NCBI GenBank assembly: GCA_947175635.1
Contig: CAMWNM010000003.1
Location: forward strand, 1 to 64,000
Length of the DNA: 64,000 nucleotides
From: an uncultured Bacteroidales bacterium
Lineage (GTDB): Bacteria; Bacteroidota; Bacteroidia; Bacteroidales; P3
Reading direction: 5' to 3'
The notes beneath the pieces were generated by a model, which saw nothing but the letters and a program-made list of their open reading frames with translations, searched no databases and was not told the origin of the DNA. Made by a program: the position numbers and the translations under genes. This document shows positions 14,614 to 35,738 of the stretch, piece by piece; within the stretch, counting starts at the first letter, position 1; every line of letters starts with the position of its first letter.

Positions 14614-15162
14614 ATGCTGTTTGAAAAAACCGCTATCGAAGGGGTGATGATTATCCGTCCCGATGTGTTTGAAGACGCACGCGGCTACTTTATGGAGAGC
14701 TATTCCGAGAAAAAGTGGCTGGAGGCAGGCTTAGACTACAGGTTTGTGCAAGACAACGAATCCAAATCGGCCAAGAACGTGCTGAGGGGGCTTCATTTCC
14801 AGAAGCCTCCCTTCGCACAGGCAAAAATCGTGCGCGTTATCCGCGGGGCCGTGATGGATGTGGCCGTTGACCTGCGCCTCGGTTCTCCTACCTACGGACA
14901 ACATGTGAGCGTGGAGTTGAGCGAGGAAAACAAATGGCAGTTCCTCTTGCCGGCCGGTATGGCGCATGGTTTCGTTACAAGAGAAGACAACACCATATTC
15001 GCCTACAAGGTGGATTCCCCCTATGCCCCCTTGTCGGAAGGCTGCATCCGTTGGGACGATCCCGATCTGGGTATCGAGTGGAATTGCCCTTCGCCCATTC
15101 TCTCGGCCAAAGACCGGGAGGGGGTACGCTTTAAGGATTTTGCGAGTCCGTTCAGGTTTTAA
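14614..15162 (+). CDS. rfbC: dTDP-4-dehydrorhamnose 3,5-epimerase
   Basis: The 182-residue RmlC cupin catalyses the third step of dTDP-L-rhamnose synthesis. The family motifs are present: DARGYFMESYSEK, the catalytic-His region LRGLHFQKPP, and GMAHGFVT. It starts 12 bases after lpdA and is probably the last gene of the run that begins at 8679. RfbA lies about 44 kb away on the other strand, while RfbB and RfbD are not in the window, so the pathway genes are scattered. Confidence 0.95.
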   Translation: MLFEKTAIEGVMIIRPDVFEDARGYFMESYSEKKWLEAGLDYRFVQDNESKSAKNVLRGLHFQKPPFAQAKIVRVIRGAVMDVAVDLRLGSPTYGQHVSVELSEENKWQFLLPAGMAHGFVTREDNTIFAYKVDSPYAPLSEGCIRWDDPDLGIEWNCPSPILSAKDREGVRFKDFASPFRF

Positions 15163-15174
15163 AGCTTGGATTTC

Positions 15175-15358
15175 TGTCGAGGCTTACGAAAAACGTTGGT
15201 CTGCGACCGTCGTTTAATCGCCTCGGCATTGCCCAAACAAGTTTGGTCTCTGCTCTCGGCTTACGAAAAACGTTGGTTTTCAACCGACTTTTTTCTCGCC
15301 TCGGCAGAATCCAAGCACGCTTGGCTTCTGCTCTCGGCTTACGAAAAACGTTCAAACT
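15175..15358 (+). repeat. Tandem palindromic intergenic repeat, copy B (three units)
   Basis: The segment GGCTTACGAAAAACGTT starts at 15181, 15258 and 15336, giving periods of 77 and 78 bp. Between repeats are palindromic cores. The last is GCAGAATCCAAGC facing GCTTGGCTTCTGC (15304-15330). The core is the same as in copy C but the base pairs differ in a compensated way. The array points towards the lytic transglycosylase gene and ends 10 bases before its start. Confidence 0.85.
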
Positions 15359-20711: not shown

Positions 20712-21488
20712 TCATACGGGTTCCGAAGTCTCATCGGCCAAGGTGTCGGCAAGATCATTCACATCCGGATTCCCTTGGTTTTCACTTGAGGTGTCGCCTT
20801 CCACCTCTTCCATATTGGCTTCTACCGAACCGTAATCTTCCTCAAGCGCCGACATATCCACGTTCACATCCACTTTAATCAGATAATCGGCTTCCTTGGT
20901 GTATAAACCTACCGCGTAAAAACATTCTCCGCTCGGTTTGGGATAGCGCATAACCGCATCGGCATAACCCTCAGGATAACGGGCATCGAAAAGAACCTTT
21001 ATTTCAGGCGTCATTTTATCGTAACTGATAATCCGACAGAGTTTTTTACCAGCAGATGCCGTTGCGGAAGAAACAGGTTTGACCGGTTTGGCGGCCGGCT
21101 GGGCAATCGGTTTGTCCACCTGTTTGCTTGCCTTCGGTGCCGGTTTGGCAGCCGGCTGGGCTTTCTTCACCGCTGCCTTGGATACCGGTTTGGCGACCGG
21201 CCCGGCTTTCTTCGCCACTGCCTTGGATGCCGGTTTGGCGACCGGCCCGGCTTTCTTCGCCGCTGCCTTGGATGCCGGTTTGGCGACCGGCCCGGCTTTC
21301 TTCGCCACTGCCTTGGATACCGGTTTGGCGACCGGCCCGGCTTTCTTCGCCGCTACCTTGGATGCCGGTTCGGCGACCGGCTGGGCTTTCTTCGCTACAG
21401 GCTTGGATGCAGGCTTTGCAACCGGTTTGGCGGCGGTCTTGCTTGCTTTTCCTTGTGCCGCCTTGGGGGCAATCTTTTTCGTTGCCAT
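20712..21488 (-). CDS. Histone-H1-like Lys/Ala/Pro repeat protein with small C-terminal domain
   Basis: A 258-residue protein in three parts. Residues 1-143 are a basic, disordered Lys/Ala/Pro/Val tail containing six 15-residue repeats (residues 32-121, type AKKAGPVAKPASKAV), very like eukaryotic H1 tails and bacterial H1-like proteins that bind nucleic acid. Residues 144-208 form a compact domain (RIISYDKMTPEIK, GECFYAVGLYTKEADYLIKV) that I have seen only as an unnamed Bacteroidota domain. Residues 210-258 are strongly acidic. The gene is divergent from the thi operon. A nucleoid or RNA-binding role is inference from composition. Confidence 0.8.
   Translation of the reverse strand: MATKKIAPKAAQGKASKTAAKPVAKPASKPVAKKAQPVAEPASKVAAKKAGPVAKPVSKAVAKKAGPVAKPASKAAAKKAGPVAKPASKAVAKKAGPVAKPVSKAAVKKAQPAAKPAPKASKQVDKPIAQPAAKPVKPVSSATASAGKKLCRIISYDKMTPEIKVLFDARYPEGYADAVMRYPKPSGECFYAVGLYTKEADYLIKVDVNVDMSALEEDYGSVEANMEEVEGDTSSENQGNPDVNDLADTLADETSEPV
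21126..21395 (-). repeat. In-frame 45-bp coding minisatellite (six units)
   Basis: Six 45-bp units encode residues 32-121 of the H1-like protein. The central four are nearly identical at nucleotide level, and the outer two are more diverged. Because the unit is a multiple of three, gain or loss of units keeps the frame. Confidence 0.9.
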
Positions 21489-33120: not shown

Positions 33121-34596
33121 CTATCTCGGCGAATAATTGGGGGCCTCCTGCGTGATGGTGATATCATGCGGATGCCCTTCGTTTACCGAAGCAGGCGTAA
33201 TCTTGATAAATTTCGCTTTTTGCAAAGCCTTGATGTCTTTGGAACCCGTATAACCCATACCGGCACGCAAACCGCCCACCAGCTGATGCAATACTTCGGC
33301 CAAGGTTCCTTTGTAGGGAACCCGCCCTACGATGCCTTCCGGCACCAGTTTCTTGATATCGGCCTCCATATCCTGAAAATAACGGTCTTTGGAACCGTCC
33401 TGCATGGCCTCCAGCGACCCCATACCCCGATAAGTCTTGAACTTCCGGCCCTCATAGATAATCGTGGCACCCGGCGACTCTTCGGTTCCGGCAAAAAGCG
33501 AACCGGCCATCACGCAAGACGCTCCGCCTGCCAGCGCCTTCACTATGTCGCCCGAATAGCGGATACCGCCATCGGCAATCAAAGGGATCCTGTATTTTTT
33601 CAAAGCCTGGGCCACATTATGCACCGCGCTCAACTGAGGCACGCCGATGCCGGCCACAATGCGGGTGGTACAGATCGAACCCGGCCCTATACCCACCTTC
33701 ACAGCATCCGCACCTGCTTCGGCTAAAGCCACAGCCGCCTCGGCCGTAGCGATATTGCCCACCACCAGATCCACCTTGTCTCCAAATTTCTTCTTGAATT
33801 GCATCGCAGCGCGCAAGACCCCTGCCGAATGTCCGTGTGCGGTATCGATCACTATGGCGTCCACCCCCGCTTCCACCAACGCCGCCGCCCGCTCCATCAT
33901 ATTGGCGGTGATGCCGATACCGGCCGCCACGCGCAAACGCCCCGAAGCGTCTTTGCACGCCATCGGTTTCGACTTCACGTTCATAATGTCGCGGTATGTG
34001 ATCAATCCTACCAACTTGCCGTTCCTATCCACCACGGGCAGTTTCTCGATCCGGTGTTTCTGCAGTATCTCGGCCGCTTTGTCGAAAGAGATCTTCCCCG
34101 TTGCCGTAATCACATCCCGGGTCATCACGTCGGTAATCTTGCGCTTGTAGTTTTTTTCAAACCGCAAGTCGCGGTTGGTAACGATACCCAACAGTTTGCC
34201 GGCTGCATCGGTTACGGGAACGCCCCCCACCCGATAGCGCTTCATCAAATCCAAGGCATCCTGCACCAAGGCCGTGTGCGGCAAGGTGATGGGGTCGGTG
34301 ATCATGCCGTTTTCGGCACGCTTCACCTTTCTTACTTCTTCGGCCTGCGCCTCAATACTCATGTTTTTGTGCAATACGCCGATACCGCCCTCCTGAGCGA
34401 TGGCGATAGCCAGCGAAGCGTTTGTAACCGTATCCATGGCCGCGGACACAAAAGGAATGTTGAGCTTGATATGCCGTGAAAACCAAGAGGTGATATCCAC
34501 TTCCCGTGGCAAAACCTCCGAATAGGCTGGCATCAGCAACACATCATCATAAGTCAGACACTCTTCCACAATGAACTTACCGGCAGAATCCCTCAT
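33121..34596 (-). CDS. guaB: Inosine-5'-monophosphate dehydrogenase
   Basis: The 491-residue enzyme oxidises IMP to XMP, the first committed step to GMP. A TIM-barrel is interrupted by two CBS domains (about residues 95-210). The catalytic Cys lies in [13 protein letters not shown] near 305, the phosphate loop in [10 protein letters not shown] near 340, and the flap in [10 protein letters not shown] near 390. It heads a five-gene minus-strand run with three chaperones and moxR. The pairing of a purine gene with envelope chaperones seems to be genomic habit and no functional link is obvious. Its promoter box lies inside repeat copy C. Confidence 0.97.
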
Positions 34597-34665
34597 AACG
34601 TATTTGTTTTCAATTTACTAAAAATCCCTCCACCCAAACACCGAAAATGCCTCGGGACAGAAAGA

Positions 34666-34673
34666 CAAAGATA
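34666..34673 (-). promoter_or_regulatory. -7 box (TATCTTTG) of guaB, inside repeat copy C
   Basis: A perfect TAnnTTTG match on the minus strand, about 70 bases before the guaB ATG. It is formed by the last bases of the repeat unit (TATCTT) plus the flanking TG. The other unit of the array reads TATCTTGA at this point, which breaks the consensus. Confidence 0.55.
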
Positions 34674-34807
34674 CGAAAAGCCGAGCGCAGAAGCAAACCC
34701 GGTTTGGTTCTGCCGAGGCTCGAGTATCTTCAACGCCAGTTCAAGATACGAAAAGCCGAGCGCAGAAGCAAACCCGGTTTGATTCTGCGCCAGGCTCGAG
34801 TATCTTC
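34666..34807 (-). repeat. Tandem palindromic intergenic repeat, copy C (two units)
   Basis: Two units start at 34668 and 34743 (75-bp period). Each has outer arms AAGATAC / GTATCTT and inner arms GCAGAAGCAAACC / GGTTTG-TTCTGC. The array fills nearly all the space between guaB and the EamA transporter gene and reaches into the transporter stop codon. It points towards guaB. Confidence 0.88.
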
Positions 34808-35738
34808 AGCCGTTCATTTCCATCTGCGCCCTTGATTTGCTGCGTGTAACCAGAAACACACCGGAAAAAACCAGCAGCGTGGAGATGGCCTTGAGCCAGC
34901 CAAAACCGTCCTGCCCCAGAATCAAAGCCAGACAAGCCGCCGTAACAGGCTGTACATAGTTATACACGCTCAACACCGTGGGACGGATGCGCTTTTGCGC
35001 CACCGGAATCAAAAGATAGGTAAAACAGGTGGCGCCCAACACCGTATAACCGAGGAAAAGATAGATTTTCAACGGCATATCGGCATAATTCACCGCCGCC
35101 GCATACCGGAAAAGAAAGGGCGCGGAAAGGATACATGAAAAAAGAAACATCCACCGCATCACCGTTACCGGCCTGTAACGGGCCACCAGATTGCGGAACG
35201 CGGTAAGGTAAACGGCATACGAAAGCCCGCTTATCAAACAGAGGACGATCCCGAACAGACTGTTCCTGCCGGCCTCCGCAACCACCTCGCCCGTCCAATA
35301 TTTACCGGCTATCATAATCACCGCGCCGCTCAGCCCGAGGAACACGCCTCCCGCCTTCATCCACGAAATAGGCTCCTTCAGAAAAAACGCCGACAGCAAC
35401 ATGGTCAGAATCGGTGTAAAAGTTACCACGATGGCCGTTTCTACAGGAGAGGCATATTCCAGTCCCATCACAAACAGCATCTGGTTGAAGAGAACCCCAA
35501 AAATCGCCGCCAAAGCCAAACCGCCCAGATCGCGCAACGGCACTTTCTCCCATTTCACAAACAAGGAAAGCAGCCAAAAGAAAATCACCGCGCCTGTAGT
35601 CCGGAAAAACGCCATGCCGAATGCCGAAACATAGTCGGGCATCACGATTTTAGACACCGGGATATTGACTCCGAATATGATATTGCTTGCCAAAATGGCA
35701 ATATGCCCTTTATAAGCGCCCTTGTCCTGATACGGCAT
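34806..35738 (-). CDS. EamA-family (DMT) transporter
   Basis: A 310-residue inner-membrane protein of ten helices made of two EamA repeats (about residues 10-145 and 160-300). Typical marks are FWRTTGAV-like FFRTTGAVIFFW near residue 45 and SPVETAIVVTFTPILTML near 95. The substrate class is probably amino acids or metabolites; no substrate can be assigned. Its last codons and stop run into repeat copy C. A TAnnTTTG box lies 24 bases upstream of the start. Confidence 0.92.
   Translation of the reverse strand: MPYQDKGAYKGHIAILASNIIFGVNIPVSKIVMPDYVSAFGMAFFRTTGAVIFFWLLSLFVKWEKVPLRDLGGLALAAIFGVLFNQMLFVMGLEYASPVETAIVVTFTPILTMLLSAFFLKEPISWMKAGGVFLGLSGAVIMIAGKYWTGEVVAEAGRNSLFGIVLCLISGLSYAVYLTAFRNLVARYRPVTVMRWMFLFSCILSAPFLFRYAAAVNYADMPLKIYLFLGYTVLGATCFTYLLIPVAQKRIRPTVLSVYNYVQPVTAACLALILGQDGFGWLKAISTLLVFSGVFLVTRSKSRAQMEMNG

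Follow-up and report, generated by a model that had tools for sequence, protein, structure and literature searches.

A dispersed family of tandem palindromic repeats in a little-known Bacteroidales genus probably sits on primary-sigma promoters, where the terminal unit of an array would form the upstream part of the promoter, as judged from sequence comparisons within and between genomes. The earlier observation, made at a single locus upstream of guaB, holds and extends wider than was first noted. Primary-sigma promoters of Bacteroidetes are described as carrying TAnnTTTG at -7 and TTTG near -33 (PMC7366714), and the box at the junction between repeat and flank matches the first of these signals, while a TTTG 20 nt upstream is a candidate for the second, the difference being that here they lie mostly inside a dispersed palindrome.

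The guaB–EamA locus

The locus lies in the window, by which we mean the whole analysed stretch of 64,000 nucleotides, and comprises the following features:

33121-34596, minus strand: guaB (IMP dehydrogenase), the downstream gene (Pfam PF00478, PF00571)
34597-34665, minus strand: unique 69-nt stretch from the box to the guaB start, probably mostly leader given the presumed transcript start (sequence)
34666-34673, minus strand: junction -7 box TATCTTTG, putative in function; 34668-34673 belong to the unit and 34666-34667 (TG) to the flank
34668-34730, minus strand: gene-proximal palindromic unit, whose 3′ end TATCTT is part of the putative -7 box (covariance model match, fold, sequence)
34694-34697, minus strand: TTTG in the proximal unit, candidate -33 element 20 nt upstream of the box (sequence)
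34731-34742, minus strand: linker between the units, a small palindrome together with the unit ends (sequence, repeat pair)
34743-34806, minus strand: inner palindromic unit with 3′ end TATCTTGA, without a full box (covariance model match, junction list)
34806-35738, minus strand: EamA-type transporter gene, the upstream gene (Pfam PF00892, ORF)

The initial annotation had read the TATCTT end of the unit nearest guaB and the flanking TG as a perfect box, and the minus strand at 34666-34673 indeed gives TATCTTTG. It was equally right that the second, inner unit fails as a box, reading TATCTTGA in the junction list, and that the array extends into the EamA stop codon, the TGA at 34806-34808 being common to the gene and to the repeat's TGAAGATAC. 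Its statement that the array fills the whole gap between the genes was wrong: the gap runs from 34597 to 34805, the units occupy 34668-34806, and 34597-34665 is the unique leader. The EamA protein ends about five residues short of its counterparts in four congeners (G003, G006, G007 and G010).

Spaced 75 nt apart, the two units are direct copies with 98% identity over 46 nt, and each is a near-perfect palindrome with a long hairpin fold (RNA fold z -3.7 to -6.8, both strands). An Rfam search of the repeat returned sub-threshold matches only, among them microRNA-precursor families that mirror the hairpin, and a scan of 34550-34850 found neither E. coli-type promoters nor intrinsic terminators. 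Taken singly, the guaB box is weak evidence and proves little, because the box motif is common in the window (TANNTTTG occurs 34 times against 31.6 expected from shuffling); it is the genome-wide TG junction rule described below that lifts it above chance.

Arrays in the genome and in the genus

The genome under study (G000) comprises 2.0 Mb in 71 contigs, and by guaB its relatives belong to the Bacteroidales. A covariance model built from 25 units found 71 unit places in 46 clusters; about 18 contig ends lie in these repeats, so that the arrays break the assembly and these unit counts are lower bounds. By their outer arms the clusters were typed by eye into two types, TATCTT/TACCTT and AACGTT. 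Eighteen clusters of the main type were scored and, separately, 19 of the AACGTT type; clusters at contig ends were omitted, namely four of the TATCTT type without a readable 3′ end (C3:26, C39, C43 and C61) and five of the AACGTT type. At positions 1-132 of the window, contig C3 starts inside a TATCTT-type array.

All 18 scorable TATCTT-type arrays face a gene start: 17 point to ATG ORFs 9-104 nt away and one abuts tmRNA. A TG follows 14 of the 18 terminal units as against none of the 23 inner units of this genome (Fisher p 2e-7); the scripted tally is 14/19, its extra row (C39:17341) being cut by a contig end. The other four terminal units read TA, before pyrH, tgt, a gene on contig C71 and, in a decayed copy, a gene read as aroC. 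Near-identical promoter sequence precedes non-homologous genes, different at each of the 18 arrays. We take the targets to include guaB, pyrH, pdxS, aroC, ruvB, tgt, prfA, porX, purN and tmRNA; only guaB, EamA and tmRNA were identified by search, the other names being read from protein starts.

Units are 62-65 nt long at a period of 75-77 and end in AAGATA and TATCTT. Their outer arms, which are terminal inverted repeats, pair in 97.3% of cells, and compensatory changes are seen in 8 of 21 arm pairs, among them two of the box-bearing outer stem, so that the palindrome persists even as the box varies. Identity between units is 94% within arrays versus 78% between arrays, a difference that fits what local growth of the arrays would produce. 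The gene-side ends stand in one register and the far ends, compared by eye, stop at varying points of the unit; this pattern is consistent with one junction formed at the -7 box and another that is unspecific.

The unit is present in 13/13 genomes of the genus. Among the matches listed, the 12 congeners hold 112 arrays at 106 loci, 97 belonging to the first type and 15 to a distinct dispersed class found in G002 and G009. For the junction-box count we omitted arrays with less than 100 nt on either side, which kept 13 of the 18 arrays of the genome under study and 91 of the 97 congener arrays. TAnnTTTG lies exactly at the junction in 72 of these 91 flanked congener arrays and is missing there in 19, among the matches listed; by crude ORF calling on the same matches, the 3′ end faces an ORF start in 82/91 and the 5′ end in 54/91. 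The two n positions of the junction box differ between arrays. In the group of G001, G002, G009 and G011 some inner junctions also read TATCTTTGG, and the failure of inner units is therefore not general. Spacing and logo were taken from 106 pooled arrays with distinct flanks, of which the 98 fitting a loosened box were used: TTG stands 20 nt before the box in 56/98 and TTTG at 20 nt in 32/98, among the matches listed, and the TA and TT columns of the logo are fixed by choice, because it was built on loosened-box matches. In the rest of the family, 8 of 53 genomes outside the genus have 1-5 mostly weak matches. Two of these were read: G064 has a clear unit ending in TACCTTTG before an ORF, and G073 (L320), from another genus of the family, has a related palindrome without a promoter box.

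The sister AACGTT type forms 24 clusters in the genome under study, frequently preceding an ORF start that lies on the opposite strand, and in the window it is seen as tandem palindromic units at 15162-15352 with a period of ~77. We rejected these repeats as further promoter cases, the junction box being found in 0 of 15 counted; some AACGTT arrays lie between a TAnnTTTG-like box and an ORF and are thus possibly transcribed leaders. In the dispersed class of G002 and G009 (loci L174, L186, L242-L247 (minus-strand unit), L269, L270, L273, L275 and L278-L280) the unit ends in CTATCGT and is followed by a conserved flank, TTGC.TTTTTC.CGTC. The window also holds a separate tandem repeat of 45-nt period (21084-21443), which is possibly coding because the period is a multiple of three.

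Promoters of array-free relatives

Orthologues were compared at 5 of the 18 loci (guaB, tgt, pyrH, tmRNA and prfA), giving 51 gene–congener pairs. For guaB, 9/9 congeners have no unit in the EamA–guaB gap and all nine carry TAnnTTTG at 54-129 nt upstream of the start, so the guaB promoter was not created by the array; the repeat as its origin is rejected, and with it the earlier view of the repeat as supplier of the guaB promoter. The distance from box to start is 77 nt in the genome under study versus 54 in G003 and 54-56 in the nearest relatives, and alignment of its guaB leader to those of the congeners is not above background, so that base-level homology of the leader is at most suggestive, and position and synteny are the grounds for calling this the same promoter.

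At tgt the array occurs in 0/12 congeners. In G003, G007 and G010 the site reads TATCTTTACA, and the flank after it resembles that of the genome under study (TACCTTTACATTTTGC); the A that breaks the G rule at its tgt junction is therefore native in the near relatives. Elsewhere the tgt box ends in TTTG (G006, G005 and G011), reads TATCTTCG in three congeners or is missing (G004, G008 and G012). At pyrH, where the junction likewise has A instead of G, no unit was seen by eye in any of 10 congeners; the box ends in A in 7 of the 8 in which one is visible, and G004 and G012 have none. The fuzzy arm flag gave false positives at pyrH in G007 and G010 (poly-T) and missed the full units at prfA in the same two genomes.

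The tmRNA box, the nearest proxy for a transcript start just after TAnnTTTG, begins 24 nt ahead of the mature 5′ end in the genome under study and 22-25 nt ahead of it in G003, G007, G009 and G010, where no unit lies against the box; in G005 and G002 the boxes lie at other positions, and a decayed unit is present in G001 and G011. At prfA there is a full unit in G007 and G010, a half unit in G003 and G002 and none in the other eight congeners, and the box is found in 12/12. Compared with array-free G003, the nearest such relative, the distance from box to start differs by no more than 1 nt at tgt, pyrH and tmRNA. Five array-free pairs among the 51 show no box at all, these being tgt in G004, G008 and G012 and pyrH in G004 and G012. 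In 17 gene–congener pairs the sequence downstream of the box, and not that upstream of it, is more similar than background; these pairs were hand-picked from the 51 and are related, so their p values are descriptive.

The case for a native box that preceded the array is firmer at tgt, pyrH and tmRNA than at guaB. A -7 box that already existed seems to have had the array grafted onto it, and with the array came TATCTT and the TTTG 20 nt upstream. Of the two routes that the initial annotation had offered, landing as a ready-made promoter falls away and recruitment as one comes nearer, grafting being the best wording. It had also named, as what would refute it, an unrelated promoter conserved at this position in relatives; a conserved promoter at that place is largely what the relatives have, although a related and not an unrelated one. 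Its expectation of a spread through the genome fits, in that at many genes, and across the genus, the repeat end makes up the upstream portion of a putative -7 box. No target-site duplication was seen by eye at tgt and pyrH, where the far ends do not align with single-base precision.

Origin of the arrays and comparison with known systems

At many everyday genes the upstream half of a pre-existing promoter has apparently been replaced by an array. Two pieces would come from the terminal unit, a -33-like TTTG within the hairpin and TATCTT as bases one to six of the -7 box; what follows, from the end of the box through the start region to the leader, would be older flanking DNA, and RNA polymerase would use the junction box. 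Arrival could proceed through a junction within or beside the native -7 box, mediated by an unspecified enzyme or by short homology over TATCTTT. The arrays might then grow and become homogenised locally, by tandem duplication or by template switching in the hairpins, and the latter would keep the palindrome while the box varies. Inner units would be weak or silent promoters in the genome under study. Retroelements that integrate at transcription start sites exist, and we tentatively raise the possibility of a bacterial counterpart, in which the repeat targets promoters by joining at the -7 box, perhaps because it is melted at transcription start, and the copy replaces the upstream half while box and start are kept.

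An ordinary dispersed palindrome (REP- or MITE-like) that inserts anywhere between genes, and survives where selection has made its end a promoter, would likewise be multi-copy, intergenic and palindromic and could be present in 13/13 genomes of the genus, and the separate dispersed class of G002 and G009, with 14 flanked copies lacking the junction box among the matches listed, is in keeping with such an element. We consider this unlikely, since no TATCTT-type copy in the genome under study points away from a gene start (18/18 face one) and random landing would not reproduce the register of the native box at tgt, pyrH and tmRNA. The near-constant period of the tandem units and the small linker palindromes could instead suggest operators for a DNA-binding protein, the units multiplying to tune a regulon; such a regulatory array is improbable, given a stem sequence that is not fixed but changes in compensation, and targets (presumably guaB, pyrH, pdxS, aroC, ruvB, tgt, prfA, porX, purN and tmRNA) that look like no single regulon. 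That the hairpins act as a terminator or insulator against read-through from the upstream gene (EamA into guaB) is highly improbable: they are strong on both strands, TTTTCGTATCTTT follows the stem and the array starts at the EamA stop, but the scan of 34550-34850 has no terminator-like site and arrays also stand upstream of divergent ORF pairs (C6:14895 and C34:10922), where little transcription would read in.

Among described elements the closest in kind is the BrickBuilt MITE of Porphyromonas gingivalis, which is reported to consist of 23-nt tandem units with a leader and a tail, terminal inverted repeats and 4-nt target duplications (PMC4596501). It resembles the present family in occurring in Bacteroidales, in its tandem units and in being wholly intergenic, at ~19 sites per genome, and reporter tests of it gave promoter activity, its discussion raising a possible mobile promoter (PMC4596501). 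The unit, the ends and the placement differ: here palindromes of 62-65 nt with a period of 75-77, and not a 23-nt unit, are fixed on the -7 box, while sections 5 and 9 of that report describe no lock on one promoter box (PMC4596501). Dispersed intergenic palindromes with hairpins and local clusters also recall REP/REPIN sequences, which are described as short, tagged with GTAG or CGTC and accompanied by RAYT transposases (PMC3733652, PMC8049555). We rejected a REP with RAYT on two features: the unit ends are AAGATA and TATCTT and not such a tag, and the RAYT-family Y1 transposase (Y1_Tnp, PF01797) was found in 0/13 genomes of the genus by a search that matches 5/14 control genomes. The copies here also differ in keeping one register on the promoter.

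The repeat behaves most like the putative mobile promoters named in the BrickBuilt report (PMC4596501), with which it shares related promoter sequence before unrelated genes. It differs in that array-free congeners have a native -7 box at guaB, tgt, pyrH and tmRNA, and since that box precedes the repeat at the tested loci, the promoter seems to have been overwritten and not delivered whole. No description of this repeat was found in the literature searched, which was mostly screened from listings.

Bacterial repeats described so far are generally considered to influence promoters chiefly through the place where they chance to land, whereas the copies described here are locked genus-wide in one register on the -7 boxes of core genes. 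The array-free relatives make the replacement of promoters by a repeat, and its mechanism, testable by sequence and by simple reporter assays, and the arrays amount to a collection of naturally exchanged promoters, ready for use, in a promoter system that has been little studied.
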